Positions 14,172-30,741 of a stretch of 51,470 nt of DNA are shown here, piece after piece (the first letter of the stretch is position 1; every line of letters begins with the position of its first letter). The stretch spans positions 1 through 51,470 of the forward strand of contig CADBNR010000058.1 in assembly GCA_902796035.1 (NCBI GenBank), given 5' to 3'. The translations under genes were made by a program, and so were the position numbers. The notes under the pieces are model-generated. The model did no database searches, was not told the origin of the DNA, and saw only the letters and a list, made by a program, of their open reading frames with translations. The stretch comes from an uncultured Bacteroidales bacterium (lineage in GTDB: Bacteria; Bacteroidota; Bacteroidia; Bacteroidales; Muribaculaceae).

Positions 14172-14385
14172 TTAACGATGTTTTTTCGACCAATCGGCCA
14201 GATTTACAAGGAAACTCTTGAGCTCGTCGCCGTAGTTACGGTTCGGGGCATCGGCACCTTCCTCTTTTGCAGATGCGCCATATTATCTGGGGATCCAGCC
14301 CCTCGACTTCCACTCCGGCCGAAGCGAATGTCTTGCTGTCGGCTTTAGCATATCCTGGTTTGAATTTAATCTTGTCGGTAATCAT
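14172..14385 (-). pseudogene. Small protein gene with an apparent one-base frameshift
   Basis: From the ATG at 14385 the frame reads MITDKIKFKPGYAKADSK, continues to EGLDPQIIW, then hits a stop about 14 codons later. In the next frame it continues naturally as ASAKEEGADAPNRNYGDEL and ends in DWSKKHR before a TAA at 14172-14174. Joining the two requires one extra base near 14270 and gives a protein of about 70 residues, charged and soluble, with no family I recognise. A good terminator follows the second-frame stop, which supports the joined reading. It could be a true pseudogene, a sequencing error, or less likely a programmed shift. Confidence 0.55.
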
Positions 14386-14519
14386 AGTATCTTAGTTTAA
14401 ACAGTCTCGGACTGTTAAGAATTGTTTCTATGATATAACCGTTTTAACGGACCAAATTGTTCACTCTGAAAGAAAGGAATTCGTCAGAATTAATGGAATT
14501 CCGGTTATAATATTGCGAG

Positions 14520-15458
14520 TCACAGCAATTCTTGGACACGTGTTTCAAATTCGGTATCTTCCAGATCGTAAGGCAGCCAATGGATTGTGGATCCGCGTCG
14601 TTCCATTCCGCGGAACCATGTCATCTGACGTTTGGCAAACTGATGGATTGATGTTTCAAGCTGATTGAACATTTCCTGATATGACAGTTCCCCCATCACG
14701 TGCAAGGTGACGTATTTATATTCCAGACCATAATATATAAGGTCTTCGGCATCTATGCCGGAATTGAGCAAATCCTGAATCTCTCGAATCAGTCCATCGG
14801 CGAGTCTTTGTTGCAGGCGTTGCGATATTCGGGCGCGTCTTTCTTCTCTGGGAATATCCAGGCCGATGATCAGTGCGTCGATAGGCTTCGCGTTCCGTCG
14901 AGATGTAGATATGGCCGCCTCGGGATGACGCAGATAATAATCCTGTATCTCGATTGCCCTTATTGCCCGCGAGCGGGTATCTATGTCAGTGACGTTATGC
15001 AGCTGTTTGTATCCGGACAGTATATCGGCGAGCTGATCCAGAGATTTGTGGGACAAGGAATGTCTTAATTCAGAATTTTCAGGCACTTCAGGCAGTGATA
15101 TCCCGTTCAGGGCATGCTCTACGTACATTCCCGAACCCCCGCAGATGACGGGACGTTTTCCGCGGGCAAGCATATCGTGATATGTCTGGTTGAAGTCTCT
15201 GAGATATTTATGAAGATTGTATTTGGATCCCGGTGCACAGATATCGATAAGATGGTATCTGATGTCTCCATATTCGTATAGATCCTTTCCGGTGCCGAGG
15301 TCCATGTTTCGATATACCTGTCTTGAATCGGCCGAAATAATCTCGCCGTTGAGTATGGATGCCAACTGTACGGCTCTGTGCGTCTTGCCGCAGGCGGTGG
15401 GGCCTACAACAGCTATGGCCCGCAATGCATTGGCGTCGCTATCGGACGGAATAATCAT
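14520..15458 (-). CDS. miaA: tRNA dimethylallyltransferase
   Basis: MiaA adds a dimethylallyl group to A37 of tRNAs that read codons starting with U. Starting at the ATG at 15458, the protein has 312 residues, the usual size. Visible motifs are the P-loop GPTACGKT near the N-terminus, ISADSRQVYR with the catalytic Asp, and CGGSGMYVEH. A basic C-terminal region (KRQMTWFRGM) is typical for tRNA binding. A longer frame reaches back to 15572, but its first 38 codons overlap the upstream gene and lack MiaA similarity, so it is rejected. The start lies five bases after the stop of the upstream membrane protein gene, indicating an operon. Confidence 0.93.
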   Translation of the reverse strand: MIIPSDSDANALRAIAVVGPTACGKTHRAVQLASILNGEIISADSRQVYRNMDLGTGKDLYEYGDIRYHLIDICAPGSKYNLHKYLRDFNQTYHDMLARGKRPVICGGSGMYVEHALNGISLPEVPENSELRHSLSHKSLDQLADILSGYKQLHNVTDIDTRSRAIRAIEIQDYYLRHPEAAISTSRRNAKPIDALIIGLDIPREERRARISQRLQQRLADGLIREIQDLLNSGIDAEDLIYYGLEYKYVTLHVMGELSYQEMFNQLETSIHQFAKRQMTWFRGMERRGSTIHWLPYDLEDTEFETRVQELL

Positions 15459-15463
15459 ATCGG

Positions 15464-16822
15464 TCACTGGCGCCACGAGGCACTTTGCTTGTTGTTGTTC
15501 AGCATCTTCTGCCATATTCGGCGTACGTGGAATCCTTTGGTATCGGAATTGAACATGGCTACACGGATCCATTTATCGTCTTGGAAATCGTAGTCTTTAT
15601 CACGGATTTCCTTCAGGTCGTAATTGGGTTGATATGACTTGACCTTGATTTTGCGGAATCCACGGTCATCGAATATTTTCTGAGTCAGCACCACTGTCGA
15701 CATTCTTGACATATCCGCCAGGAATGTGCCGGCCATAAGAGCGGGACTGGAATTATAAATGCTCTTGATCCGGCTAAAGTCCATCCATTCGCCTGTGATG
15801 TTAAGTTCAGGATAATCCTCGGGCTTACCGTCAAGGAAATAAAAATACCTGAGCAGACGATGTTTCTGCATGTCGGGATTACGGCGTCCATAGAAGAACT
15901 TAAGGTGTCCCGGATGCTGCACCATATTGTGGATCACATCGTTAACCTCATAGGTGGAAATACCGTTCACATTGCGTTTTGTCACGAAAGGTGTGTCAAT
16001 TATGTTGCGGTAAGGCATTTGCGGATCTACGGTCCTGGGATTGACATAGATGCTGTTGTCGCATATAACATAGAACCGCAGATATGTCTTCGTGGTCATG
16101 TCGCTGAGTTCCTCCTCCGTGATGATGTTGCCCCTCTCCTTCTGATCCAGATATATGTTGTAGTATCTTGCTGCGAAATACATACCGTCAATAAGGAATA
16201 TTACCAGATTGAGCCAGAAGAAGATGTAACGGTCGCGAATATTTATGTCGGCCGATCTGTCATAAAGAGTGAAGTAATAGGCCCAGACTATTATCGACAG
16301 CCCCCCGAACACACACAGAAGATTAAGAATCTGTAATCGGGATTCGTGATGTAGAATCTGTCCCAGTTTCCCGCGGTCTATGGAGAGGCCGTTCTTGAAC
16401 TTGCAGTCCATGCAAAAGCTCAGAGAATTGAGTCGGAGCATAATGATGCCGAATGTTACGAAACATATCGGGTCAAGCAGCAATGACGGTATGTAGGGAG
16501 GCGTGATGAATGTCAATTCCTTGGGCAATTCCATCATACCCCAGATATACAACAGATTGAGGATGATCGTGACGAATGAATAGGTAATTAGGCAATAGAA
16601 CAGGGCATAAATCATCACCATGCAGCTGGGATTATCCTCCAGTCTGTTGTTATAGAGCATGGTGTAAAGCACGGCCGCTCCTATTAATGAAGGAATAGGC
16701 GCAAAGTAGTATGGGAGAACCTGCGCGAGCAACATGGTGCCCATCAACACCAGAATGCCGATACAGAAGTCCTTCCAAAAGGCGAAAAGTCTCGAACTAC
16801 TTATTTTTTCCAAGTCGTGCAT
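15464..16822 (-). CDS. Six-helix membrane protein of unknown function
   Basis: I do not recognise this 452-residue protein. About six hydrophobic segments fall in residues 15-230 (for example FCIGILVLMGTMLLAQVL, FVTIILNLLYIWG and FFWLNLVIFLIDGMYF). They are followed by a soluble, charged C-terminal half of about 220 residues with many Tyr, Arg and Lys. A short cytoplasmic N-terminus lacks a cleavable signal. No enzyme or transporter motif is visible. It lies between the DPP-IV gene (gap of 63 bases) and miaA (gap of five bases) and is probably cotranscribed with both. A role in inner-membrane sensing or assembly is possible but unsupported. Confidence 0.75.
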   Translation of the reverse strand: MHDLEKISSSRLFAFWKDFCIGILVLMGTMLLAQVLPYYFAPIPSLIGAAVLYTMLYNNRLEDNPSCMVMIYALFYCLITYSFVTIILNLLYIWGMMELPKELTFITPPYIPSLLLDPICFVTFGIIMLRLNSLSFCMDCKFKNGLSIDRGKLGQILHHESRLQILNLLCVFGGLSIIVWAYYFTLYDRSADINIRDRYIFFWLNLVIFLIDGMYFAARYYNIYLDQKERGNIITEEELSDMTTKTYLRFYVICDNSIYVNPRTVDPQMPYRNIIDTPFVTKRNVNGISTYEVNDVIHNMVQHPGHLKFFYGRRNPDMQKHRLLRYFYFLDGKPEDYPELNITGEWMDFSRIKSIYNSSPALMAGTFLADMSRMSTVVLTQKIFDDRGFRKIKVKSYQPNYDLKEIRDKDYDFQDDKWIRVAMFNSDTKGFHVRRIWQKMLNNNKQSASWRQ

Positions 16823-16885
16823 TGTCGTTTTACATCCAGGTCACGCCCTCATAGTGAAATCCATAAACCCTATATATTCAACGTC

Positions 16886-19069
16886 TTAGCGAACATATTG
16901 GTCTAAGAAATCACATATTTTTTTGAACAGCATCGTCCTGGCATTACATTTGGGCAGACTGTGTTCAAACCCGGTCAAGGCCATCATGTCGAATACCGTT
17001 CCCTCAGAATAGAGCTTAGAGGTATATTTCAGAGTATTATAGACATGTACATTGTCATCGCTTGTGCCGGACATAATAAGTAGCCGGCCCTTCAGATTCT
17101 GTGTCCTGTTAAGGGCGGAAGCCAGGTCATAACCGGATTCGTTCTGCTGGGGTGTGGTCATGTACCGTTCGGTGTATATGGAATCGTAAAACCGCCAGTC
17201 GGTCACGGGAGCCATAGCCACTCCCGCCTTGAACGTGCAGTCGGGATTTCCGAGTTCCATAAGTGTCATATAGCCGCCATAGCTCCAACCGAAGCATGCC
17301 GTACGTTCGGGGTCTATATAACTCTGTTGCGTCATCCACTTGGTGCCTGCAAGCTGGTCTTTGGTTTCCAATTGTCCCAGACGGCGGTAAACGGAAGTGG
17401 CCCACTGACGCGAGCGATTGCCGGTTCCGCGGCCATCCACAGCTGCTACGACGTAACCCTGCGATGCCAGATAATAGATGCCTTCCATGCGCCACGCATT
17501 CAAGACCTCCTGAGAGTCCGGACCGTTATACTGATACATCAGCAACGGATACTTATTGCTTGCTGAGAAATCTGCAGGCTTGATGATGAAAGCGTCCATC
17601 ATTTCACCTTCGGCGTTAGGAATCTGCAGGAATTCTTTCTTGGGGGCCGAAGCATATTTGGATGCATACAGGGCATTGTTCTCTACTTCGGTCAGCAGTT
17701 TGCCACGGTTATCGCACAGAGTGAACACCGGAGGTGTGACGGCATTGCTGTAAGAACGGAGGAAATAGCGGCAGTCGCTGCTGAACCATGCGTTCTCGGT
17801 TCCGGGCGTATTGTTCAGTATTGTCACTTTGCCGTTACGTTCTACGGCGGCGACATTGCGGTTGATTGGACCAAGCTGTGTGGTCTGTACGTAAACAGTG
17901 CCTGTGCGCGGATCGCAACCGTAGAAGTCGGTCACGTTCCACTCCCCTTTTGTGACCTGACGCAGGCAGTTGCCGCTGTAGTCGTACTCATACAGATGGC
18001 GGTACCCGGACTTTTCGCTACCGATAAAGAATGACTTTTCGCCGTATTCCCCCATCCGGTATGCAGCCGGGCTGAGCCATGCGTCGCTTGTTTCCGTATA
18101 TATTACCTTGGCGACTGTGCTGCCGGGATTCACCTTATATAATCTGAGCGAATTCTGATCACGATTCAGAGTCATGACCATCAGGTTCGTGCCGGTGCCG
18201 TCAAACTCCATTGACGGAACGTAGTCCTTGCCAATCGGAATATCCATCTGCTTTACTGTCTGATTGTCGACATGGTAGGCCAGAACAGTCACAGTGGAGT
18301 TGGGATATCCGGCCAACGGATACTTGTACGAATAGCTTTCGGGATACACATCCGTGAGCGGATCGGCGTCGCAGTATGATTTATAGTTGTCAAAACTATA
18401 TACAGGCACCTCCGACTCGTCGAAACGGATGAATGCCAGCACATTGTTCTGCCCGTTCCAGGCCATTGCGGTCTGCATGCCGAATTCCTCCTCGTAAACC
18501 CAGTCAGGAATACCGTTTATCACCTTATTGGTCTGGCCGTCTTTGGTTATGGCCTTGTCGGTGCCGTAATCCAGATTGGAAATCCATAGATTGTTGTCGC
18601 GCATATAAGCCACCTGAAGGCCGTCATGGCTCATGGTCGCTCCACGTTGCGGACCGCATGTCGATACACGTTGCATTGTGCCGCGGAAAGTATCATATAC
18701 ATAATACTCCGCATAGAATGAATGTCGGTATATCTTGGAAGTCTCCTGCCACAGCATTATCTTTCGGCCGTTGTCAGAAATGGAGTATCCGTCGAACGAA
18801 TCTATCTTGACTTCGCCCTTCTGAGCGTCGAGGCTGAAAAGAGTCTCCAATTTCTTTCCGGTCTTGAAGCTGTATGACTCGATGCTGCGGCCATCAGCCG
18901 ATATCGCGGAATAAGACGTGCCGTCGGCCAGTGGCATCGGCGTCTTGACGCTGACCGGTCGCGTGAGATCGGGCTGGCAATAGTCTGCGACCGTGAGAGG
19001 TGCGGCTGTGGCTGTGGCGCACATAGTTACGGCGGCTGCCGAAATATAATGCCTTAGATTCTTATTCAT
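16886..19069 (-). CDS. Dipeptidyl peptidase IV-like serine peptidase (S9B)
   Basis: This exported 727-residue peptidase should release X-Pro and X-Ala dipeptides from peptide N-termini. A signal peptide covers residues 1-22. A beta-propeller domain follows, carrying the DWVYEEEF motif whose Glu residues hold the substrate amino group. The C-terminal alpha/beta-hydrolase domain carries Ser596 in GWSYGGY, Asp671 in GTSDDNVHV and His703 in GFEHSLP. The length matches bacterial DPP-IV. It lies 33 bases after proS and probably shares its transcript. Gut Bacteroidales enzymes of this type can act on host peptide hormones and gluten-like peptides. That is family knowledge, not shown here. Confidence 0.92.
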   Translation of the reverse strand: MNKNLRHYISAAAVTMCATATAAPLTVADYCQPDLTRPVSVKTPMPLADGTSYSAISADGRSIESYSFKTGKKLETLFSLDAQKGEVKIDSFDGYSISDNGRKIMLWQETSKIYRHSFYAEYYVYDTFRGTMQRVSTCGPQRGATMSHDGLQVAYMRDNNLWISNLDYGTDKAITKDGQTNKVINGIPDWVYEEEFGMQTAMAWNGQNNVLAFIRFDESEVPVYSFDNYKSYCDADPLTDVYPESYSYKYPLAGYPNSTVTVLAYHVDNQTVKQMDIPIGKDYVPSMEFDGTGTNLMVMTLNRDQNSLRLYKVNPGSTVAKVIYTETSDAWLSPAAYRMGEYGEKSFFIGSEKSGYRHLYEYDYSGNCLRQVTKGEWNVTDFYGCDPRTGTVYVQTTQLGPINRNVAAVERNGKVTILNNTPGTENAWFSSDCRYFLRSYSNAVTPPVFTLCDNRGKLLTEVENNALYASKYASAPKKEFLQIPNAEGEMMDAFIIKPADFSASNKYPLLMYQYNGPDSQEVLNAWRMEGIYYLASQGYVVAAVDGRGTGNRSRQWATSVYRRLGQLETKDQLAGTKWMTQQSYIDPERTACFGWSYGGYMTLMELGNPDCTFKAGVAMAPVTDWRFYDSIYTERYMTTPQQNESGYDLASALNRTQNLKGRLLIMSGTSDDNVHVYNTLKYTSKLYSEGTVFDMMALTGFEHSLPKCNARTMLFKKICDFLDQYVR

Positions 19070-19102
19070 GACGTCGACTGATGTGTGTTTCAGGTTAAGG
19101 TA

Positions 19103-20584
19103 TCAATAACTGCGGGCGAACAATACCCGTTGAGCGGAAGGTTTGCCTGTCACCATACATACGCCGGGTGTCTTGTCGGAATCGAACGGGATGCAACGTA
19201 TGGTAGCCTTAGTCTCTTCCTTGATTTTAGCCTCGGTCTCGGGAGTGCCGTCCCAGTGTGCCATGATGAATACGCCATCTTCGATTCGCTTCTTGAACTC
19301 ATCGTATGTGTCGACGGTGATGGTTTTCTCGATGCGGCGGTCAAGGGCTTTCTGATACAGACTTTTCTGTATGTCGTCGAGAACCTCTACGATATGGTCG
19401 GCGATGCCGTCGAAAGAAACAATCTCTTTCTGCAGTGTGTCGCGGCGCATCATTTCGACCGTGCCCTGTTCCAGATCTCGCTGTCCGATGGCCAGACGTA
19501 CAGGAACGCCCTTGACTTCATAGTCAGCGAATTTGAATCCCGGGCGCCGGTTGTCAGCGTCGTCATACTTGACGCTTATGCCTTTGGCACGTAATTCATT
19601 TATGAGAGGCTGAACTTTCTCCGAGATTGACTTCAAACCCTCGTTATTCTTGTAGATAGGCACAATCACAACCTGGATAGGAGCCAGCTTGGGAGGCAGT
19701 ACAAGACCGTTGTCATCGCTGTGAGTCATGATCAGCGCACCCATAAGGCGTGTCGAGACGCCCCAAGACGATGCCCATACATATTCCGGCTTGTTGTCCT
19801 TGTTCATGAACGTTACATCGAATGCCTTTGCAAAGTTCTGGCCCAGGAAGTGGGATGTGCCGGACTGCAGGGCTTTGCCGTCCTGCATCATGGCCTCGAT
19901 TGTATAGGTGTCGAGGGCGCCGGCAAAACGCTCGGTGGCAGACTTTACACCTTTTATGACGGGAATCGCCATGAAATCCTGTGCGAATGTGGCGTAAACC
20001 TCAAGCATTCTGCGAGCCTCTGCCTCGGCCTCCTCGCGGGTGGCGTGGGCTGTATGACCTTCCTGCCACAGGAATTCGGCAGTACGCAGGAACATGCGGG
20101 TACGCATCTCCCAGCGCATCACGTTGGCCCACTGGTTGATGAGCAACGGCAGGTCGCGATAGGAATGTATCCAATTCTTGAATGTGCTCCAGATGATGGT
20201 CTCGGATGTGGGTCGGATTATAAGTTCCTCCTCCAGCTTGGCCTCGGGGTCCACAATCACGCCGTTGCCCTCGGGGTCGTTCTTGAGCCGGTGATGGGTC
20301 ACGATGGCGCATTCCTTGGCAAAGCCCTCTACGTGCTCGGCTTCACGGCTCAGGAACGATTTGGGGATGAGAAGCGGGAAATAAGCGTTCTGATGCCCGG
20401 TGGCCTTGAACATATCGTCCAGCTGACGCTGCATCTTTTCCCAGATGGCATAGCCGTAAGGCTTGATTACCATACACCCTCTTACTGCCGACTGCTCTGC
20501 AAGATCAGCCTTTGCTACCAACTCGTTATACCACTGCGAATAATTATCCGCACGCTTCGTGAAGTTTTTAAGTTCTGTTGCCAT
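19103..20584 (-). CDS. proS: Prolyl-tRNA synthetase, archaeal/eukaryote-like short form
   Basis: ProS charges tRNA-Pro with proline in the cytoplasm. At 493 residues, without the editing insertion of the bacterial long form, and ending in ARSY, it is the archaeal/eukaryote-like type. The C-terminal Tyr is a hallmark of that type. Class II motif 2 is visible as [14 protein letters not shown], with TSETIIW before it and [14 protein letters not shown] further on. The ATG at 20584 is preceded by a consensus -7 box. It heads a likely operon with the DPP-IV gene, the membrane protein and miaA. Confidence 0.95.
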
Positions 20585-20655
20585 ATTGCGCTAAAAAACC
20601 GTCCACTGTCCCAGATCGACGTGAAAGGATTCTTTGTTCTTTTAAATTTATTTAG

Positions 20656-20663
20656 CAAAGTTA
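20656..20663 (-). promoter_or_regulatory. -7 box for proS
   Basis: The minus strand reads TAACTTTG(C), an exact match to TAnnTTTG, about 72 bases before the proS ATG. No clear TTTG is seen at -33. Confidence 0.5.
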
Positions 20664-20738
20664 GTAAAAAGTAGTGAAATATTAAAACATTTGACGCCTT
20701 GATTATTCAAAATGTATTCAAAAAGAGGATAAACAGAA

Positions 20739-20763
20739 AAAGAGGCGCCCGAAGCGCCTCTTT
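20739..20763 (-). terminator. Terminator of the MFS transporter gene
   Basis: A perfect 10-bp stem (AAAGAGGCGC with GCGCCTCTTT) has a five-base loop that reads TTCGG on the minus strand. A TTCTGTTT tail follows. It begins 16 bases after the transporter stop codon. Confidence 0.8.
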
Positions 20764-20779
20764 CTTCATATAATAATGT

Positions 20780-22132
20780 TTATTGCCGTTGCAACGTCTT
20801 GGGGTCGGCAACGCGTCCCAGACTGGAAGGCTGGTCTTCATAACTGTTGGCATCCGCTTCAATCACGAAACTGTGTCGTTTCCAGATTGCGACAAGCAGC
20901 ACTATCAGAATGATGCAGCCGTTGAATATGAACGAGAAGTTGACACTGTCTGAATGGAACAGATGGCGTGCGCCCGATATAACGAACGGTACTATCGAAA
21001 TACCCACATAGTTGCATGTGAGGAGGTAGGAGAAGTATGCGTTCTGTTTTGCAGCATTCGGCGCGACGTACGATGTCTTGTCATAAATCAAAGGCTGGAC
21101 TATTCCGTAACCGAGTCCCATGATGAAAATACCTGCGATATATGCCCAGTACGAGTGTACCAGCCCTACGAAAAAGAGTCCGAACACCACGAGCAACAAT
21201 GCCAATTCCATGGTCCACTCTTTACAGACTCTTATGGCCTGAGGCAGAATGAAACCGGACAGAGTGGCAGATGCGAAATACATGGCGGTGGCCACACCTA
21301 CATCGGTGGTGTCAAGTCCATAATCCTTCATGGCAAACGGCAGGTAATAGCTCACTACTTCGGTGCCGTATGTGGCTATGAAATAGAGGGCCATGAGACC
21401 GAATAGAAGTGCGAGTGCCGTCTTTCCTTGAAAATTGAAATTCGGGCCTGCCGGTTTGCCGGTCTTTTTCGTCTGCGCTATGTCCTGGTCAGACGGTCTC
21501 GACGGTTCTTTGACAGGAGGGACAATTTCACCGGGATAATCGATGCGATGAGCGTAGATATAACTGCGGGTCATGAATGGCACCAGACACAACGGTATGA
21601 TCGGTATCATGTACACGATGAACGCGAGGTGTCAATTGTATACAGCAACCCAGCCGACAAACAGTGTGGCGAAAATCACCATGAAGTTACTTACTCCGGA
21701 TTTCATACCCAGAGCTTTTGTACGTGCCTTACCGACTGTATATTCGGAGATCAGCGAGGCTGCCAGCGGTATGATCAGACCGCATCCCACACCTAACAGA
21801 CAGCTCAGCACTATCAGTTCCGTCATGGTCTTGGCGAAAAAATATAGTATTCCAGTCGCAGCATATATCACCAGACCGATGCCGAGTATCCACATCTGGT
21901 TTTTAGGTGTGCAGAATTTGCCTGAGCATAGAATAAACGGAATTGTCACCAGGTTAGGCAAGACCGTGAGCAACTGTATTTCGAGTTCAGTGACATTGGT
22001 GAACACATCATCCAGCTTGCCCATGATCGGCGATATCGCCAGACCCGGAAGGTTTACCGTCAGCGAAATGGAAAGGATGGCCAGCAGGGAAATATACGGG
22101 ATTTTCCCGCAGCCGCAATCTACATATTTCAT
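20780..22132 (-). pseudogene. MFS transporter interrupted by one in-frame TGA
   Basis: This is one 450-codon major-facilitator-type transporter reading frame broken only by a TGA at 21632-21634. The N-terminal part (from 22132) has five or six membrane segments with GVGCGLIIPLAASLISE. It ends at FVGWVAVYN, and the same frame continues as HLAFIVYMIPIIPLCLVPF through another six segments. A Trp codon (TGG) at the stop would restore a standard 12-helix carrier with its central cytoplasmic loop rich in Pro and charged residues. Substrate is unknown. A start at 21616 for the second half has no promoter. It is either a recent pseudogene, a base-call error or a leaky stop. Confidence 0.85.
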
Positions 22133-22179
22133 ATCAATAGATTTTAAAGTGGAATGAAGAAAACAATGTCTGTTTCACA

Positions 22180-22404
22180 TTATTTATTAACCTGCTTCTG
22201 GTAATATGTGTTGGAGATAGTGCCTATGAAGGTATGTCTCAGCAGGAATGCGAATATAAGGAATATGACACAGACCGCCACGCTGATGAAGAATGGGAAA
22301 GTGCTGTCCACCGATTTATGGAATAATTTGCAGATTCCTTGCGTCAATACTTCGGTTATTTTTTGAGAGTTTGTTAACGGCTCCTCGGAGCCGTTAACAA
22401 ACTC
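22180..22404 (-). pseudogene. C-terminal remnant of a membrane protein
   Basis: A 74-codon open stretch ends in a natural stop at 22180-22182. It reads a charged lead (TNSQKITEVLTQ), KLFHKSVDSTFPFF, one strong membrane segment (ISVAVCVIFLIFAFLL) and a polar tail ending NTYYQKQVNK. This is the look of the last helix of a transporter. The frame enters the nearer palindrome arm and is closed by a TGA in the outer arm, so the rest of the gene is missing. It lies 47 bases before the MFS gene and was probably its operon partner. The exact family cannot be told. Confidence 0.6.
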
Positions 22405-22426
22405 TCAAAAAATAACCGAAGTATTG
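22345..22426. repeat. 82-bp near-perfect palindrome (40-bp arms, 2-base centre)
   Basis: Bases 22345-22384 and 22387-22426 are exact reverse complements, separated only by TC. The arm at 22345-22384 continues the reading frame of the membrane-protein remnant, so it is the original copy. The other arm is its inverted duplicate and destroys the frame. TTTTTAAC follows on the plus side, so the RNA could also act as a terminator, but no plus-strand gene lies before it. Confidence 0.95.
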
Positions 22427-22542
22427 TTTTTAACAATGCTGACAAATAATGGTTCAAGTCATTCTTCGGGATTTATTGCAGCGTTCAAACAATATTTGTA
22501 TCATATCATAATTCTCTATAATACAAGGTCTCATAAGTAACG

Positions 22543-22588
22543 GTAACGGCGGGGTGGAGAATGACGCCATTCTCCACCCCGCCGTTAC
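22543..22588. repeat. GC-rich hairpin downstream of the DUF4293 gene
   Basis: A perfect 21-bp stem (22543-22563 with 22568-22588) closes a four-base loop. It includes the core GGCGGGGTGGAGAATG. It lies 24 bases after the DUF4293 stop and probably ends that transcript, although no T-tract directly follows on the minus strand. A short GTAACG duplication abuts its outer end. The 116 bases between it and the palindrome hold no gene I can see. Confidence 0.8.
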
Positions 22589-22611
22589 TTAAAAAATAAG
22601 GTAATATTTAC

Positions 22612-23082
22612 CTATCGGAGTCTGTCGGCTGCACGCAACTTGCGTCCGTCGGCACAGATCCTGTTATACGCCATGACATCGGCCACGATAGCAAGGAACG
22701 GCGCGATGATGAGCGAAGACCAGCTGACGGCGGCCTGCGGGAAGGAATAATATCCGTATACGGCTCCGATGCATATCACAGCTACAAGAAACAGGATTTC
22801 GATAAGGCACAGCAATTTCTGGAGACGCATGTTCCTGAAGCAGAATATCGCGATGAACGGCATGATGAAGCTGAGCATGGACACCGCAAAAAATATCCAT
22901 GTATGCGCCACGAAGCCGGTAGGACCACCGTCGGTGGCAATGCCCTCTATGTCAAAACCGAGAGTAGTGAAATTGCAGGTATAGTCGGGCAACTGCACCT
23001 GTCCGAGAGACATGAAAGTAAAGCAGCCCATCACAACGGCCGCAATCAGCAGAAGTGCCGACTGCCATCTTTGTATTACCAT
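22612..23082 (-). CDS. DUF4293 family membrane protein
   Basis: The 156-residue product fits DUF4293, a small four-helix membrane family of Bacteroidetes with unknown function. The opening MVIQRWQSALLLIAAVVMG is characteristic. Further membrane segments are WIFFAVSMLSFIMPFIAIF, LLCLIEILFLVAVICIG and a last one near residue 125. A longer frame back to 23199 would add 39 soluble residues across the predicted promoter, so the ATG at 23082 is chosen. The C-terminus is basic (GRKLRAADRLR). It is transcribed away from the TPR gene. Confidence 0.82.
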   Translation of the reverse strand: MVIQRWQSALLLIAAVVMGCFTFMSLGQVQLPDYTCNFTTLGFDIEGIATDGGPTGFVAHTWIFFAVSMLSFIMPFIAIFCFRNMRLQKLLCLIEILFLVAVICIGAVYGYYSFPQAAVSWSSLIIAPFLAIVADVMAYNRICADGRKLRAADRLR

Positions 23083-23156
23083 AGTTTTAATACTAAAATC
23101 AGTGAAAAATTGCGGTAAGACCCCAATCCATACGGTACAAGGCCCCATATCGTCTG

Positions 23157-23164
23157 CAAAATTA
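23157..23164 (-). promoter_or_regulatory. -7 box for the DUF4293 gene
   Basis: The minus strand reads TAATTTTG(C), an exact TAnnTTTG match, about 75 bases before the ATG at 23082. The -33 element is not obvious. Confidence 0.45.
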
Positions 23165-23269
23165 GCAAAAATATTTGAAACAACGGAGCCTGCTGACAAA
23201 TTTGTAGGTGCGCTTTTGCGTTACTATATCGGGGCGTATGTCGGGACGGATTAAACAAAGTGTGCCAAT

Positions 23270-23283
23270 CCTGTATATACAGG
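23270..23283. promoter_or_regulatory. 14-bp palindrome upstream of the TPR gene
   Basis: CCTGTATATACAGG is a perfect 14-bp palindrome located 33 bases before the TPR-protein start codon, in the region shared with the divergent DUF4293 gene. Its size and position suit a dimeric repressor operator. No regulator gene is nearby, so this is inference. Confidence 0.35.
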
Positions 23284-23316
23284 CGGTTTTTGGTGCATTA
23301 TTTGTTATCGAATTAT

Positions 23317-25485
23317 ATGAATGATACAGAAAGGAAACTTAAGCAGATAGAGAGCAACATAGATGGCGGAATGCTGAATCGCGCAATGCGCGATTTGCGT
23401 GATGTGGCGCAGCAGAGCGGCGATTATGAATCGCTGAACCGACTGAATGCCGCCTCGCAGTCTTACGGATATCTCAGGCGATACTATATAGAGGGGAAGC
23501 CCGACCCTACCCGGGCTTCGATGCTCAGTGATCTGGCCGAGCAGTTGCGCAATGTGTCGGATGCCTTGGCCAGACGGAGTAAAGCGGAGGAGCCCGGCGT
23601 CTATTATTCGTCACAGCGCCTTCTGTCATTGCGCAAAGGAAATCTAAACGCGTCTTTGACGAGATACAGGGAATTGATGGCTCAGATAGCACTTGCCGGA
23701 ATGGTACAGAAGGTGTCCGTCGACATGTCGCGTGAACGCTATGAGTTGCTTGAGACCATCTTCCTGACAACAATGCTGACATTTCAGGACAAGGCGGCTA
23801 TGCAGACGCTGCTCAAGGTAATGGAAGACCCGGATACCGACATTGCATTGCAGTATCAGCTGATTGCGGCTCTTACTCTTGGCTTGACTGCATGGTTTGA
23901 CGAAATGAAGCTTAACCTGATGATAGAGCTGTTGATGCATTCCGACCTCCAGACTCCGTCCAAGGCCAGACTTCTTGTCGGAGTTGTAGTATGTATGGCT
24001 GCGTGGCAGGGACGGATAGCTAAAACAGACCGTCTTAAAGACCGTATCAGATTGTTGCTTGATACCGATGATATGGCCGCGAGAGTCAAGACTGTAATCA
24101 AAGCCATTGCAGGAACACTGGACACACAGCGTATTTCGGACAAAATGAAAAACGAGGTATTGCCCGAAATCATGAAACTGCGTCCTGAGATGATCCAGAA
24201 ACTTAAAGGAATGTCAAAAGGCATCGATTCTGAATCATTGGAGAACAATCCAGATTGGGAAGAAATGCTCGACAAGACCGGCATAGGCCGCAAGCTGGAG
24301 GAACTGAGCGAGATGCAGAACGACGGAGCCGACCTGATGATGGTCACGTTCTCGCAGCTGAAAGGCTTCCCCTTCTTTCAGCGTGTCAACAACTGGTTTA
24401 TGCCCTTTGATTCCAAACATCCGGATTTGGGCTTTGACGAGAAGATGTCGGAAACCATCGGACGGATGACGGATTTCACGCCCTTTATATGCGACTCGGA
24501 CAAGTATTCGCTTGCATTGGCATTGAAGCAGGCTCCCGAAATGCAGCGCACTATGCTGCTGAAACAGTTCGACATGCAGTTCGAGCAGATGTCGCATGAG
24601 ATAAAAGAGAAATTACCAGATTCATCCCGTCCTGATTTTGACAACGAATCGGTCAAGGCTGTGCGAGATCTATACCGGTTTTATAAACTGTCGCGCAAAG
24701 ACGGAGACTTCTATAATCCGTTTGTCAAAGCCCTTGAATTCCTCAACATTCCGGGGCTTGACCGGCATCTGAATGACGGCCAGTTTATCGAGACGATGGC
24801 GGAATTCTATTTCAAGCGCCAGTACTACAAAGAGTCTCTTGGCCTGTTCCGCACATTGTCAGAGAAGAATTATGAAGACAATTCCATCTGGCAGAAGATT
24901 GGTTTCGCTTGTCAGAAACTGCAAGACTTCACCGGTGCCCGCGAGGCATACATGAAATCGGTGTTACTCGGTGACGACAGTTTATGGATTGAGAAAAAAC
25001 TGGCATACGTAAACCGTAGGCTCGGCAATTATCGGGAGTCACTGGAATATTATGATAAGGTGTTGGAACGTGATTCAGGAAATGTAAAGACGATGATAAC
25101 GGCCGCCAATGCAGCTTTAATGGCAGATATGCCGGAGCGGGCTGCAGCATATTTTTATCACGCACATTATCTGAACCCTGATATGAAGGAGGCCACCCGA
25201 GGTGCTGCATGGGCCGAATTAATGTCGGGACATATTCACAAAGCCTCCACGCTTTATGGAGAATTGCTGAAAAATGAATCCGATATGACCGATCTGCTCA
25301 ACGCAGGACATGTGTCTCATCTGTCGGGACGGATAGAGGAAGCCGTGAGCCGTTATCGTGCGGCCGCAAGGATGAATCAGTCGGATTTCGAACTGGCGTA
25401 TGTGGCCGATATTCCTATCCTTCTGAAATTAGGAGCCGATCCACAGGGCGTAAAACTATTGCTTGATGAAGTCCTGGATCAGTAA
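23317..25485 (+). CDS. Large TPR-repeat protein, cytoplasmic
   Basis: From the ATG at 23317 the protein has 722 residues and no signal peptide. The first 450 residues are alpha-helical with no recognised domain. They contain a block around LPEIMKLRPEMIQKLKGMSKG and several Met-rich helices. The last 230 residues form tetratricopeptide repeats (for example NSIWQKIGFACQKLQDFTGA and YRESLEYYDKVLERDSGN), which bind other proteins. I know similar long TPR proteins from Bacteroidales but no assigned role. An upstream in-frame start at 23260 would add 19 residues unlike the family and overlap the palindrome. It converges on dnaA over a shared terminator. Confidence 0.8.
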   Translation: MNDTERKLKQIESNIDGGMLNRAMRDLRDVAQQSGDYESLNRLNAASQSYGYLRRYYIEGKPDPTRASMLSDLAEQLRNVSDALARRSKAEEPGVYYSSQRLLSLRKGNLNASLTRYRELMAQIALAGMVQKVSVDMSRERYELLETIFLTTMLTFQDKAAMQTLLKVMEDPDTDIALQYQLIAALTLGLTAWFDEMKLNLMIELLMHSDLQTPSKARLLVGVVVCMAAWQGRIAKTDRLKDRIRLLLDTDDMAARVKTVIKAIAGTLDTQRISDKMKNEVLPEIMKLRPEMIQKLKGMSKGIDSESLENNPDWEEMLDKTGIGRKLEELSEMQNDGADLMMVTFSQLKGFPFFQRVNNWFMPFDSKHPDLGFDEKMSETIGRMTDFTPFICDSDKYSLALALKQAPEMQRTMLLKQFDMQFEQMSHEIKEKLPDSSRPDFDNESVKAVRDLYRFYKLSRKDGDFYNPFVKALEFLNIPGLDRHLNDGQFIETMAEFYFKRQYYKESLGLFRTLSEKNYEDNSIWQKIGFACQKLQDFTGAREAYMKSVLLGDDSLWIEKKLAYVNRRLGNYRESLEYYDKVLERDSGNVKTMITAANAALMADMPERAAAYFYHAHYLNPDMKEATRGAAWAELMSGHIHKASTLYGELLKNESDMTDLLNAGHVSHLSGRIEEAVSRYRAAARMNQSDFELAYVADIPILLKLGADPQGVKLLLDEVLDQ

Positions 25486-25510
25486 TAAGTCTTGGATCAG
25501 TAAAAATAAT

Positions 25511-25546
25511 AGAAATGCGACTTACAGGTCTGTAAGTCGCATTTCT
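25511..25546. terminator. Bidirectional terminator between the TPR gene and dnaA
   Basis: A perfect 16-bp stem (25511-25526 with 25531-25546) with the core AAATGCGACTTACA closes a four-base loop between two converging genes. Confidence 0.85.
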
Positions 25547-25564
25547 ATATAATGTGGGTAGCTT

Positions 25565-26962
25565 TTACCGCAGTAATACTTTTTCAATAGACTCAACGGC
25601 AGTGGCGGTATCCCTTGAGCATGAAATACGGTCCTTAACTGCTTTGATGCCATAAATTACTGTAGAATGCTCGCGTTTCAGCTTGGCGCCGATGGCAGGT
25701 GTGGAAAGATCGGTGTGCTTGCTGCAGAGATACATCACGATCTGCCGGGCATCCGCAATGTCCCGCATACGGCTCTTGGAAAACAGGTTGTCGGGATTAA
25801 GATTGAAATATTCCGCAGTATTTTCCACGATCATGTCGAAATTGATGATCTTTTTGACCGGTGTTTTAACCGTATGGCTAATCACCTCTTTGGTCATTTC
25901 GACCGACAGCGGCATGTTGGTCTTGATGGATCGTGTCAGAAGGCCCATAACAATGCCTTCGAGTTCGCGTACCGAACCCGTGGCGCGTTCTGCAATGAGG
26001 TCAATGATATCGTCCGACAGATCCAGACCGCTTCTGTTGGCTTTGGCATGAAGGATTTTCTTGCGAAGCTCCAGATCCGGAGCCGGGAGAGGTTCGGTAA
26101 TACCCCATTTGAAGCGGTCGATCAGGCGGTCGGCTATTCCGTCAAGTTCCTGAGGGGGACGGTCGCAGGAGAATATCAGCTTCTTGTTATGTGCATGCAG
26201 GTGGTTGAATATGGGAAACAACGCGCTCGCGCTCTTGGAACCGGTCAATTCCTGAAGATCGTCGAACAGCAGGCAGTCCATCGATTGGAAATAATTGATG
26301 AACTCGGGAATGCTGCCGTTTTTATCAAGTGCCACATGCTGATACATGTTCTGAAATTGACGCATGGTCATGAACAGCACGCGAGCTTTCGGATTTCTCT
26401 CCTTGATTCGGATGCCGATGGCCTGGATCAGATGAGTCTTGCCGACACCTACATTGCCATAAAGGAAAAATGGATTGAATTCCGGTTTTTCAGGATTGTT
26501 TGCAATGTGCTCAGCGATGGTGAAGGCAACTTTATTCGACTCTCCTACGCAATAATTCTCGAACGAGAGTTTGTCGTTGAGCTGAGAATCGAAATTGTTG
26601 CTCTGGTTCTCAACGGGAGCGGTTTCGGTCTGACGTGTCACCGAACTGGTGAGTGAACCGGAGCGTTCAGGACTAAGTACCTTTACGCGCGATTGATTGT
26701 CGTTGCCGATGATGTTGTATTCAAACTCCAGCGTATAGTTGCCGAAGGATTTGCGCAGAGCCACATTGAGGATATTGGCAAACTGATCCTCGTAGAGATC
26801 GGCGTAATATGCCGACGGAAGTTTCAGCACCAGATGGCCGTTGTCGAAGCTGACCGGGCGAGCCACGGCAAACCATATCTTGAACCGGTCCTCGCCGATG
26901 TTGGCGCGGAGCAGCTCACAGCATTTTGCCCATTTGCTTTGCAGTTCGTTCGAATTGGTCAT
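25565..26962 (-). CDS. dnaA: Chromosomal replication initiator DnaA
   Basis: DnaA binds the origin and opens it in its ATP form. The 465 residues show all domains. Domain I covers residues 1-90, a short Ser/Thr/Asn-rich linker follows, and the AAA+ domain has Walker A GNVGVGKT with Lys175 and Walker B LLFDDLQ. Domain IV carries the signature REHSTVIYGIKAV close to the end. The ATG at 26962 fits the family. A TTACTTTG box on the minus strand at 27033-27040 is a near-consensus -7. The upstream region is AT-rich, but I find no cluster of DnaA boxes, so an origin here is not supported. Confidence 0.96.
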   Translation of the reverse strand: MTNSNELQSKWAKCCELLRANIGEDRFKIWFAVARPVSFDNGHLVLKLPSAYYADLYEDQFANILNVALRKSFGNYTLEFEYNIIGNDNQSRVKVLSPERSGSLTSSVTRQTETAPVENQSNNFDSQLNDKLSFENYCVGESNKVAFTIAEHIANNPEKPEFNPFFLYGNVGVGKTHLIQAIGIRIKERNPKARVLFMTMRQFQNMYQHVALDKNGSIPEFINYFQSMDCLLFDDLQELTGSKSASALFPIFNHLHAHNKKLIFSCDRPPQELDGIADRLIDRFKWGITEPLPAPDLELRKKILHAKANRSGLDLSDDIIDLIAERATGSVRELEGIVMGLLTRSIKTNMPLSVEMTKEVISHTVKTPVKKIINFDMIVENTAEYFNLNPDNLFSKSRMRDIADARQIVMYLCSKHTDLSTPAIGAKLKREHSTVIYGIKAVKDRISCSRDTATAVESIEKVLLR

Positions 26963-27179
26963 TGGTGTTTGCGTGTTCTGATATGGCGATTGTGCGTTTA
27001 AGGTCCGGCCAACCGCTTCCCGATTCTCTATGCAAAGTAAGGATAAATAATCTTAATAAAAAAATTGTTTTGCTATTGCATTTTTCGATTGTTCTACTAC
27101 GCTCTGATATTCAACACATTATTTTACACATTTTTTTTGACCGATATTTTGACGGTTTCTATTGATAGCATGAGGCGTA

Positions 27180-27209
27180 TTGCGGAACCGTAAATTTTAA
27201 TTAGCTTTG
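27180..27209 (+). promoter_or_regulatory. Promoter of the thiS unit
   Basis: A -33 TTG (27180-27182) and the -7 TAGCTTTG (27202-27209) are separated by 19 bp. Transcription should start near 27216, giving a leader of only about 18 bases. That is too short for a TPP riboswitch. The AT-rich 27041-27179 stretch before it shows no other element. Confidence 0.65.
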
Positions 27210-27233
27210 TAGTTGCAAACATAATATGTTATC

Positions 27234-27437
27234 ATGAAGATAGAACTGAATAACGAGCCGGTGTCGTTAAGCGACGATACTAAAAGTGTGGCTGAACTGC
27301 TGGCCGATAGAGGTGTGAAAAGCGGAGGTACGGCCGTGTCGGTAAACAATAGAATAGTACGGCACAGCGACTGGGAGCATACCATGTTGCACGAGGGCGA
27401 CAGGGTGGTGATCATTACCGCGGCTTTTGGAGGATAA
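27234..27437 (+). CDS. thiS: Sulfur carrier protein ThiS
   Basis: ThiS is a ubiquitin-like carrier whose C-terminal Gly-Gly is adenylated and then thiocarboxylated to deliver sulfur for the thiazole ring of thiamine. The 67-residue protein has the expected beta-grasp pattern and ends in ITAAFGG, with Gly-Gly as the last two residues. It is followed with no gap by a ThiE/TenI-type gene, and after that by thiE. The partners ThiF, ThiG and ThiH are not in this window. Confidence 0.92.
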   Translation: MKIELNNEPVSLSDDTKSVAELLADRGVKSGGTAVSVNNRIVRHSDWEHTMLHEGDRVVIITAAFGG

Positions 27438-27983
27438 ATGAGATTCCTTAGAATAGGTATCACACCGCCTGATTTCAGACCGTGCGAGGGCGAATCCATA
27501 GTCCGGCTTCTTGACGAAAGAGCGGACATAATGCATCTGCGCAAGCCCGGGTGCACAATCAGAGAGATGGAGGCCTTGATAAGAAGCATTCCGGAGTCAT
27601 ATTATTATCGGCTACGTGTACACAGCTGTTTTGAATTGTGCGGCAAATATGGATTGAGGGGTGTGCATCTCAACAGCCGGGAGCATGATGTACCCGCAGG
27701 TGTGACAAACATATCACGATCATGCCATCACGTCGCGGAACTCGACAATCCGATTCCGGACGGATGCAGACTGGAATATCAGACACTCTCCCCTATTTAC
27801 GATTCAATATCAAAACAGGGATATTCATCTAATTTTAAACTTGAGGAAATTAAGGATTGCTTAATCGGGAAAGAGGTAATTGCACTGGGAGGTGTGACTA
27901 TTGATAAATTTGTTGAATTAAGCAATGCGGGTTTTATCGGAGCGGCCATGCTGGGTTGTCTTGAGGAATATTACAGACGTTGA
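27438..27983 (+). CDS. ThiE/TenI-family protein (thiamine phosphate synthase-like)
   Basis: This 181-residue protein is a short, divergent member of the ThiE/TenI barrel family. Visible features are HLRKPG on an early strand, RLRVHSCFELCGKYGLRGVH and LSPIYDSISKQGYSS with the phosphate-binding region. A final ALGGVTIDKF comes near residue 150. It lacks parts of the pyrimidine-binding site of the full ThiE encoded next, so it may be a TenI-like thiazole tautomerase rather than a synthase. Its start codon directly follows the thiS stop, which indicates strict co-expression. The choice between the two activities is inference. Confidence 0.75.
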   Translation: MRFLRIGITPPDFRPCEGESIVRLLDERADIMHLRKPGCTIREMEALIRSIPESYYYRLRVHSCFELCGKYGLRGVHLNSREHDVPAGVTNISRSCHHVAELDNPIPDGCRLEYQTLSPIYDSISKQGYSSNFKLEEIKDCLIGKEVIALGGVTIDKFVELSNAGFIGAAMLGCLEEYYRR

Positions 27984-28059
27984 ACGGCACGGTCTTTCGG
28001 TAAACTGTAAAGGTATACGGATCGTTAATATAATGAAGTAACACATAAATTACTTGGAA

Positions 28060-28692
28060 ATGGCATTGCAATATATAACGAATACGTCGTCTTCGGTGTC
28101 GGTAACGGATCAGATACGTGCGGTGATCAACGGCGGCTGTCGCTGGGTGCAGATACGTATGAAAGAGGCCGATGACAACGAAGTGCGTAAGGTTGTGGAG
28201 ACTGTTATGCCCTGGTGCATTGAGACGGAGACATTCCTGATACTGGATGATCGTGTAGAGCTGGCCAAGGAACTGCAGGCCGGAGGCGTGCATTTAGGCA
28301 AGACAGATATGCCTCCGGTCCAGGCTCGTCTTCAGTTGGGAGCCGGAGCTGTCATTGGTGTGACGGCCAACACGTTCGAGGACGTGGATAAAGTAAAGAC
28401 CCTCGACGTGGATTATATAGGCGTAGGTCCGTACCGGTACACGGAGACCAAAAAGAACCTTGCACCTCTATTGGGTCTGGAGGGAATAAGACATATCTGC
28501 GACGAGATGAAAAAGAACGACATAACAATTCCTGTGGTCGCTATAGGAGGCATTCGGCTCGAAGATGTGCAGCCTTTGATGGAGACTGGAGTAAACGGCA
28601 TAGCTGTAAGCGGAGCCATTGCATTTGCCCCCGATATTCAGCATGCCACGGAAGACTTTGTAAACGCTTTGAAAAAAGTTAATCAGGCGTGA
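28060..28692 (+). CDS. thiE: Thiamine phosphate synthase
   Basis: ThiE joins the hydroxymethylpyrimidine and thiazole phosphates to thiamine phosphate. From the ATG at 28060 (a TTG two codons earlier is less likely) it has 210 residues, the standard size. The barrel motifs are VQIRMKEAD, LILDDRVELAKEL with the Mg-binding Asp, GVHLGKTDMP, IGVTANTFEDV, DYIGVGPYR and VVAIGGIRLEDV. It lies 76 bases after the TenI-like gene and is probably in the same unit as thiS. No thiamine riboswitch is seen in that gap. Confidence 0.93.
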   Translation: MALQYITNTSSSVSVTDQIRAVINGGCRWVQIRMKEADDNEVRKVVETVMPWCIETETFLILDDRVELAKELQAGGVHLGKTDMPPVQARLQLGAGAVIGVTANTFEDVDKVKTLDVDYIGVGPYRYTETKKNLAPLLGLEGIRHICDEMKKNDITIPVVAIGGIRLEDVQPLMETGVNGIAVSGAIAFAPDIQHATEDFVNALKKVNQA

Positions 28693-28700
28693 CATATTAT

Positions 28701-28731
28701 TTTGTAACGCGCGATTTTTTGCTTAACTTTG
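28701..28731 (+). promoter_or_regulatory. Promoter of the mre cluster
   Basis: TTTG (28701-28704), 19 bp, then TAACTTTG (28724-28731) is a full consensus match. It lies just after the thiE stop and marks the rod-shape genes as a separate unit. Confidence 0.8.
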
Positions 28732-28740
28732 TAAGCTGAA

Positions 28741-28787
28741 AGACCAAGGCCGTGTGCGCTGACCTGTTGGGCGCACGATATTGGTCT
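28741..28787 (+). ncRNA. Folded 5' leader of mreB
   Basis: An outer 7-bp stem (AGACCAA at 28741 with TTGGTCT at 28781) encloses a second GC stem (GTGCGC at 28754 with GCGCAC at 28771). The predicted transcript start lies near 28737, so the mRNA would begin at the hairpin. The mreB ATG is 27 bases after it. This may stabilise the mRNA or regulate translation. No T-tract follows, so a plain terminator is unlikely. Confidence 0.45.
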
Positions 28788-28813
28788 GTCCAATAATAAG
28801 TTAGATAAGGCAA

Positions 28814-29833
28814 ATGGGATTATTTTCGTTTACACAGGAAATTGCGATGGACTTGGGTACCGCCAATTCCATCATCATACATAACGATAAGATAGTGGTG
28901 GACCAGCCGAGTGTCGTGGCCATCGAGAATAAGACGGACAAGCTTCTTGCAGTCGGCGAAACGGCTCATCAGATGGAAGGAAAGGAACCCCCGGGCATCC
29001 GTACTATCCGACCGCTTCGCGATGGTGTGATTGCAGACTTCAATGCCGCCGAGCAGATGATTCGCGGCATGGTCAAGATGGTGAACAACAAGCGCCGATG
29101 GTTCTCGCCTGCCCTCCGCATGGTGGTTTGCATCCCATCGGGATCGACCGAGGTCGAGATTCGCGCCGTGCGCGACTCCAGCGAGCATGCCGGAGGCCGC
29201 GATGTATATATGATATACGAGCCTATGGCCGCGGCTCTGGGTATCGGCATTGATGTCGAGGCTCCGGAAGGAAATATGATTGTGGACATAGGCGGCGGAT
29301 CGACGGAGATTGCCGTAATATCGCTTGGCGGTATCGTATCCAATAAGAGTATCCGTACGGCAGGCAACGACCTGACGGCCGATATTCAGGCACACATGGC
29401 CAACCAGCATAACGTAAAGGTCGGTTCCACCATGGCGGAGCAGATCAAGATAAATGTCGGTTCTGCCATTCCTAATCTGGATAATCCGCCGGAACCATTC
29501 GTGATATGCGGTCCGAACAAGATCAACGCCCTCCCGATGGAAGTGGCCGTGACCCACGATGAGATTGCGCACTGTATAGACAAGACTATCCAGAAGATGG
29601 AAAACGCAATCCGCGACGCTTTGGAACAGACACCTCCGGAGCTATATGCGGATGTGGTACGCAACGGTATCTATCTGGCTGGCGGCGGCGCGCAGTTGCG
29701 CGGTCTGGCCAAGAGGTTCTCGGACAAATTCGAGATTGAATTCAAGGTGCCCGACGACCCCTTGCACGCGGTGGCAAAGGGTACCGGTGTAGCCCTGAAG
29801 AATATAAACCGTTTCTCGTTCTTGATTAGATAA
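28814..29833 (+). CDS. mreB: Rod-shape actin homologue MreB
   Basis: MreB forms membrane-bound filaments that orient lateral wall synthesis. The 339 residues match the family. The nucleotide site shows LGTANSIIIH near the start, MIVDIGGGSTEIAVI in the middle, and LAGGGAQLRGL near residue 290. The Phe-rich N-terminus (MGLFSFTQE) is the usual membrane anchor. It is the first gene of mreBCD-mrdA-rodA, with a consensus promoter and a structured leader. The gap to mreC is 35 bases. Confidence 0.97.
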   Translation: MGLFSFTQEIAMDLGTANSIIIHNDKIVVDQPSVVAIENKTDKLLAVGETAHQMEGKEPPGIRTIRPLRDGVIADFNAAEQMIRGMVKMVNNKRRWFSPALRMVVCIPSGSTEVEIRAVRDSSEHAGGRDVYMIYEPMAAALGIGIDVEAPEGNMIVDIGGGSTEIAVISLGGIVSNKSIRTAGNDLTADIQAHMANQHNVKVGSTMAEQIKINVGSAIPNLDNPPEPFVICGPNKINALPMEVAVTHDEIAHCIDKTIQKMENAIRDALEQTPPELYADVVRNGIYLAGGGAQLRGLAKRFSDKFEIEFKVPDDPLHAVAKGTGVALKNINRFSFLIR

Positions 29834-29868
29834 ACATATAGTCCGATCGGATAATATAGATTGTCGGA

Positions 29869-30720: not shown

Positions 30721-30741
30721 CGGATTAACAGACATAGAGAT

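Follow-up and report, generated by a model that had tools for sequence, protein, structure and literature searches.

Introduction

Nearly precise excision of the transposon Tn10 was reportedly described by Foster et al. 1981. The remnant of this excision is flanked by the target-site duplication of the transposon, and its formation involves no loss of host DNA. The process is covered in PMC5991714 and PMC12524634. In an inverted pair of insertion sequences (ISs), the DNA bounded by short repeats that lie a little inward of the two outer ends is lost, leaving a short remnant with both outer ends; in the account of PMC12524634, the process depends on inverted and short direct repeats and on copy choice. 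The palindrome reported here resembles the Tn10 remnant in that both outer IS ends are kept and are joined at a motif (GGCTCC/GGAGCC) just inside them. However, it has no target-site duplication, host DNA is missing, the IS is a different one, the product is a perfect palindrome of 82 bp, and it occurs at several loci in one genome. Since a flanking duplication is absent and host DNA is missing, the presumed IS pair did not enter the genome together as one composite transposon.

Terminal-only PATEs of Haloquadratum, which are of the IS605 type, are described as fused termini that remain after deletion between near-terminal palindrome repeats and that occur in multiple copies (PMC3119063). Our palindrome likewise amounts to a transposon reduced to fused terminal sequences, with multiple terminal-only copies. 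However, PATEs have an IS605-type parent and fuse the two ends of one element, whereas the parent here is of the DDE type and one left end (LE) is fused with another LE.

MITEs (e.g., MITEAba12, as characterized in PMC6382973) share with the palindrome its short length, the lack of a transposase, ends common to an IS of the same genome, and several copies. They differ from it in that the palindrome has no target-site duplication (0/4 copies), consists of LE and LE without an interior, and stands at sites with losses. The clean insertion of a MITE was not seen at either of the two copies that were compared with a sister genome, since 559 bp of the sister sequence were missing at the window copy and 1.5 kb at another. 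Template switching in quasipalindromes, as outlined in PMC7202029, is similar in that hairpin-primed copying perfects an inverted repeat, but the present case involves the joining of two complete IS ends together with a deletion. REP sequences and REPINs are also short dispersed palindromic units, but the partner presented for them in PMC3116915 and PMC2817692 is a RAYT tyrosine transposase, while the IS with this LE encodes a DDE transposase.

Among the papers listed in a literature search that covered few subscription journals, none described palindromic LE-LE scars from this kind of IS. The locus combines a known type of IS with what is probably a familiar type of process; for its form and setting, that search gave no published match.

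Results and discussion

Structure of the palindrome

The window (the whole stretch of 51,470 nucleotides analysed here; 48% G+C) is contig 58 of the 2.2-Mb assembly of an uncultured Bacteroidales bacterium of the Muribaculaceae, which has 76 contigs and is called 92% complete. A sequence-only reading of the window had described a palindrome with two exact 40-base arms and a two-base centre, and the listing of inverted repeats (arms >=16, spacing <=200) bore this out. The arms are 40 nt each and 100% complementary with a 2-nt gap (Table 1), and the palindrome is the longest of the ten inverted repeats listed in the window, the next longest measuring 21 bp. Besides the separate hairpin in Table 1, a second further perfect hairpin with 19-bp arms lies at 25509-25548, between convergent genes; both of these hairpins are located at gene ends.

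Table 1. Features around the palindrome; positions are those of the window.
Feature	Position	Strand	Remarks
proS (prolyl-tRNA synthetase)	19103..20584	-	conserved neighbour left of the scar
MFS transporter gene	20780..22132	-	split by one in-frame TGA; same locus in G063, elsewhere in ten other relatives sampled
C-terminal remnant of MFS transporter relative	22180..22344	-	54 codons and stop, flush with the palindrome tip
82-bp perfect palindrome	22345..22426	.	LE fused inside-to-inside with inverted LE; outer ends are IS tips CAATAC...GTATTG
Left arm	22345..22384	.	outermost 40 bp of the left end (LE) of the IS, tip at 22345
Centre GGCTCC-TC-GGAGCC	22379..22392	.	small hairpin of the intact LE; join point of both ends
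Right arm	22387..22426	.	LE in inverted orientation, tip at 22426
Unaligned 3 bp at right tip	22427..22429	.	G063 collinearity restarts at 22430; 559 bp of sister absent
Separate hairpin, 21-bp stem	22543..22588	-	lies downstream of DUF4293 and resembles a minus-strand terminator; outside the element
DUF4293 gene	22612..23199	-	conserved neighbour right of the scar

The predicted RNA fold of positions 22335-22440 had an energy of -66.6 kcal/mol (z = -16.8), which was equalled by 0/200 shuffles. Perfect inverted repeats with arms >=20 and a spacer <=6 were rare: the window and 14 other stretches of its own genome held five, of which four were the 82-bp unit, and 20 stretches of relatives held one. 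At 82 bp, the palindrome is shorter than the length that E. coli cannot maintain. The sequence-only reading had called palindromes of this kind normally unstable. According to a review (PMC7999016), longer arms and shorter spacers increase the risk of palindrome instability. Four copies with perfect arms would fit either a recent origin or upkeep via template switching of the kind outlined in PMC7202029.

Dispersal in the genome and the genus

The complete 82-bp unit was present at four sites of its own genome, namely on contigs C58 (the window), C29, C5, and C6, and the three copies outside the window adjoin genes other than those of the window. These three copies are identical over 82 bp, and the window copy differs by one base change that is present in both arms; the allele, AACTC or AATTC, is the same in both arms in 4/4 palindromes. 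A one-sided half of 48 bp, made up of an arm and the centre plus six bases from the opposite arm, was found at six further sites (C75, C50, C64, C23, C42, and C37), all of them at most about 250 bp from a contig end. Four of the six half copies carry AACTC and two carry AATTC. By our own arithmetic, four concordant palindromes would arise from independently drawn arms with a chance of about one in ten.

LE-type matches occurred in 24 of 111 same-genus genomes, the own genome included, and in a few of them (e.g., G065) consisted of the 20-21 bp tip alone. The full 82-bp palindrome was listed in none of the other 110 same-genus genomes, including the 23 with LE-type matches, although only 8 of 17 candidates were scored in G133, so that a full copy there may be missed. 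Its absence from the 23 other LE-bearing genomes fits an event in one lineage better than general recurrence. The exact palindrome core had no match in genome_contigs, where the own record was possibly excluded, and neither the core nor the LE patterns had an exact match in viral contigs, from which the own records were possibly excluded as well. A phage, plasmid, or viral origin was rejected, as positions 22000-22700 of the window were unmatched in phage and plasmid collections and the viral contigs held no exact core or LE match.

The parent insertion sequence

The palindrome arm with the centre is the left end of an IS, found at many unrelated loci and in other species. Beyond their 48 bp, the half copies run into a common interior for 85-133 bp from the tip, until the contig or the similarity stops. 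A nearly complete IS was found in genome G033 (L057 1187-2590). It is 1,404 bp long, extends from CAATACTTCGG to CTATTG, and has TAATTTA, a 7-bp duplication, on either side. Its terminal inverted repeats are imperfect (CAATACTTCG.. and CAATAGTTCG..), and target-site duplications of 6-7 bp were found in three of the eight IS copies having both ends, a set in which four copies are internally shortened and two have a common left flank. Two LE and right end (RE) pairs of the own genome also match over 6 bp in a duplication-like manner. Among all combinations of LE and RE flanks, matches of at least 6 bp occurred in 6/308, and five of these were the pairs counted as duplications.

The open reading frame (ORF) of the G033 copy has a DDE transposase domain, with 44.0 bits for PF13546 (DDE_5; cut-off 27) and 36.2 bits for PF01609 (DDE_Tnp_1; cut-off 23). 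Among NCBIfam models, those nearest to it were for the most part IS701 and IS4 transposases, and none reached its cut-off; the best, NF049999, scored 78.4 bits against an equivalog cut-off of 170, with a degenerate copy as the query. We describe the parent as a 1.4-kb DDE insertion sequence that is IS4/IS701-like, and no subfamily is claimed because the copy is degenerate. Relatives of the IS protein with 57-58% identity come from Segatella copri and Leyella, and other IS matches lie in records titled Muribaculaceae, Porphyromonadaceae, and Bacteroidales. Plasmid records (Segatella, Parabacteroides) contained two partial relatives of the G033 IS, at 64.5-67%.

The own genome has six REs, all at most 105 bp from a contig end, and contig C67 (17.2 kb) carries an RE at either end. 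One protein query, run without a positive control, did not detect the IS transposase in the assembly of this genome. Since the IS ends of this genome stop at contig ends, we take the IS bodies to have been lost from the assembly as a collapsed repeat.

How the two left ends are joined

The intact LE contains the inverted repeat GGCTCC-GA-GGAGCC 34 bases in from its tip, and the centre of the palindrome is exactly this repeat. When an LE and an inverted LE are joined at GGCTCC or GGAGCC, the 82 bp of the window result letter for letter, whereas joins at the other listed shared words give 62, 83, or 95 bp; all four genomic copies are the 82-bp product. Among 22 distinct LEs, the hairpin is paired in 88.6% of cells, compared with 18-58% when its position is slid. 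Its covariation does not go beyond that of shuffles, as 66/500 reach it, and two pairs show a compensatory change. We therefore regard the LE hairpin as conserved at the level of its bases and make no claim for conservation of the structure.

No target-site duplication was found at any of the four palindromes; the difference between 0/4 palindromes and 3/8 IS copies with a duplication is not significant. Flanks of different palindromes match each other in a duplication-like manner, over 6 bp between C29 right and C5 left and over 7 bp between C5 right and the window right, and these matches are AT-only (L029, L030, and the window).

Missing DNA at the window locus

The window is collinear with the sister genome G063 on both sides of the palindrome, over positions 14274-22344 (87.7% identity) and 22430-32139 (85.2%), and 559 bp of G063 between these blocks are absent from the window. 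The left break coincides exactly with the palindrome tip and the right break is 3 bp off the tip. The earlier observation that the palindrome cuts off a transporter-gene remnant was confirmed, as the remnant is flush with the tip and is 98% identical to G063 over 54 aa. The same reading took the inner arm as a continuation of the membrane-protein frame. A minus-strand frame (22404-22180) is indeed open through one palindrome arm, but its homology to a membrane protein is confined to the remnant, and G063 has other codons where the window frame enters the palindrome; the arm is not sequence of the gene.

In G063, the frame of the remnant belongs to an ORF of 157 aa (open frame of 161) with likeness to the MFS protein (32% over 103 aa); the complete transporter next to it is 450 aa long. 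The interrupted gene hence already looks decayed in the sister, and the 559 bp, which contain a short frame whose start looks by eye like a signal peptide as well as the initial portion of the 157-aa frame, cannot be taken as the true size of any host segment that was lost.

The prolyl-tRNA synthetase gene proS and the DUF4293 gene lie on one stretch in nine of ten relatives sampled at DUF4293, at most 250 bp apart in six and 2.8-2.9 kb apart in three. On the ten stretches sampled at the MFS gene, proS and DUF4293 were not found. G063 shares the placement of the MFS gene between proS and DUF4293, so the block had probably moved by the time the two lineages parted. The MFS gene that is split by a TGA in the window is an uninterrupted 450-aa frame in G063. 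In two of the ten relatives that have the MFS block elsewhere, the block adjoins an ORF of 442-447 aa and a second MFS-like ORF (likeness by eye).

The other three palindrome copies

On C29, the right flank is flush with the palindrome tip (L136 2037 corresponds to L191 9467), and 1,539 bp of G063 with an ORF of 467 aa are missing. These 1,539 bp were unmatched in the sequences compared outside G063, a set that did not include the rest of the genome of the window. The 238 bp to the left of the C29 palindrome match nothing but themselves in the sequences compared, so the event on C29 was more complex, which counts against a simple collapse of the kind discussed below.

On C6, gene homology starts 6-11 bp past the right tip, and the frame has 75 codons compared with 161-186 in relatives. 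The palindrome of this contig (L138 19077-19168) has arms of 45 bp, which extend 5 bp beyond the IS tip on each side (CATTA/TAATG), and the start codon of a lipoprotein-like ORF to its left is at most 3 bp from the left tip. The C6 palindrome lies 245 bp from the contig end and that of C5 lies 111 bp from the contig start, where its near flanks are unmatched. In all three copies that could be compared (window, C29, and C6), a loss adjoins the palindrome.

Origin of the palindromes

We lean, slightly beyond an even balance, towards the palindrome being a deletion scar made of two LEs, left when an inverted pair of ISs collapsed at the LE hairpin. The starting state would be two inverted IS copies with their LEs outward (LE-IS-RE-X-RE-IS-LE, where X is a host segment), derived from two insertions or from the duplicative inversion of one IS, which is known for other ISs. 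This long inverted repeat would fold during replication, and the new strand would slip or switch between the GGCTCC/GGAGCC of the two LEs. Both IS bodies and X would thereby be removed, and LE-LE' would remain as a perfect palindrome without target-site duplication; either the same collapse would have taken place at four loci, or its product would have spread among them. If one IS gave rise to both LEs, the same allele would be expected in both arms, as was seen in 4/4 palindromes. Collapse is the simplest single step that would explain the IS tips at both ends, the lack of a duplication, the loss of host DNA, and the fixed centre.

Contig C67, with an RE at both ends, shows a standing RE-X-RE arrangement, which would be an indirect sign of a parental inverted pair; no such pair was found alongside its collapsed form. 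Several points speak against collapse: the intermediate is itself something that we infer, the one protein query missed the IS transposase in the assembly, the covariation of the hairpin does not surpass shuffles, the 23 other LE-bearing genomes listed no full palindrome, and by our own estimate four nearby inverted pairs are unlikely to arise by random insertion.

The main rival is a MITE-like palindromic mini-element, an explanation that is possible but that we consider rather unlikely. In this case, an LE would have been made palindromic once by hairpin fold-back synthesis and moved in trans by the IS transposase, with adjacent deletions flush with the tips following later. The near identity of the four copies would suit such an element, as would its being listed in 1/111 genomes, which is expected of a new element spreading in one lineage, and its having an exact IS tip at either end. 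In Mre11- or Sae2-deficient yeast, according to PMC7999016, palindromic duplications are driven by fold-back at inverted repeats that measure 5-9 bp and have spacers of 3-12 bp, and the change shared by both arms of the window copy could be explained by quasipalindrome template switching as presented in PMC7202029. However, a target-site duplication was found at 0/4 palindromes compared with 3/8 IS copies having both ends, a contrast that is by itself not significant, and 3/3 comparable sites have missing DNA or a truncated gene, so that a second event would be needed each time.

A wider scenario, which we regard as speculative and more doubtful still, would combine both processes. An IS with an LE hairpin would make inverted pairs collapse repeatedly into LE-LE' palindromes, each time deleting host DNA; the palindromes, with their two functional tips, would then act as mini-elements that trigger further deletions flush with the tips, and this distinct, readable class of scars would drive genome reduction in this gut lineage.

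An assembly or library artefact, in which the LE hairpin linked reads that stem from separate IS left ends, is improbable, and so is the artefact at an assembly join that the sequence-only reading had raised. All four palindromes come from one assembly, two of them lie close to contig ends (111 bp on C5 and 245 bp on C6), and fold-back or palindromic chimeras in library preparation and amplification are documented in PMC10908179 and PMC6218980. However, collinearity with G063 holds on either side of the window copy, which shows that distant loci were not joined. Furthermore, there are 14 LE flanks (six half copies and eight at palindromes) but only six RE flanks were found, whereas chimeras of whole ISs should give equal numbers. 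The six LE half copies equal the six REs, and the eight palindrome flanks are without an RE partner; mis-joined ISs would therefore require eight more REs. A join of distant loci by the assembler at the window was rejected on the collinearity with G063 and the conserved neighbourhood of proS and DUF4293, the two genes that stand together in 9/10 relatives.

It is very improbable that the palindrome is kept for a function, such as that of a strong terminator or a hairpin regulator. The hairpin is very stable and a T run follows the palindrome on the plus strand, but the identified neighbour genes are encoded by the minus strand, and on that strand the palindrome is not followed by a T run. A terminator scan requiring a loop of 3-8 found none at the palindrome and only the separate hairpin of Table 1, and the palindrome sits in sequence that looks decayed in G063.

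The claim that the gene was cut when part of the transporter's coding sequence was duplicated in inverted orientation, for which the frame open through one arm could be cited, has next to no likelihood and is refuted by the dispersed copies of the arm: the arm is an IS left end found at unrelated loci and in other species, three further 82-bp copies stand beside other genes, and the G063 gene continues with a different sequence. The template switching or fold-back priming suggested along with it keeps a place here, as an event of this type at a hairpin is one plausible origin, but it would not have acted on the gene's own sequence.

If the palindromes are scars of collapsed IS pairs, perfect IS-end palindromes would recognisably mark places where DNA between inverted IS copies was once deleted. 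These marks could be searched for in any genome, so that gene loss driven by an IS could be counted after the IS has gone. They would also allow hairpin-directed deletion to be tested in nature in organisms other than E. coli, and would explain a type of palindrome that might otherwise be dismissed as an assembly error.

Other repeat ends and rearrangements

Several observations concern related or different repeat ends. In genome G086 (C70 and C52; L087 and L103), the same left end of ~57 bp occurs in several copies on a different interior, suggesting a chimeric or second element that uses the LE. Two records titled Segatella copri (L155 and L156) have in common ~1.5 kb of the left flank of a related IS copy and are entirely different past its right tip, a pattern that may reflect rearrangement flush with the tip in this IS family. 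The contig starts of C5 (L137 1-111) and C29 (L136 1-88) share, as judged by eye, a similar TGTCCCAG..GCTCCGG motif, and their matched parts are 157 bp apart in G063; the motif is perhaps the end of another repeated element. Finally, on contig C56 of G065 (L083, around 1505-1545), a repeat end other than the LE, CTTAGGGATATTCAGTTA..., forms a short palindrome end to end, which is possibly the same kind of scar from another IS.
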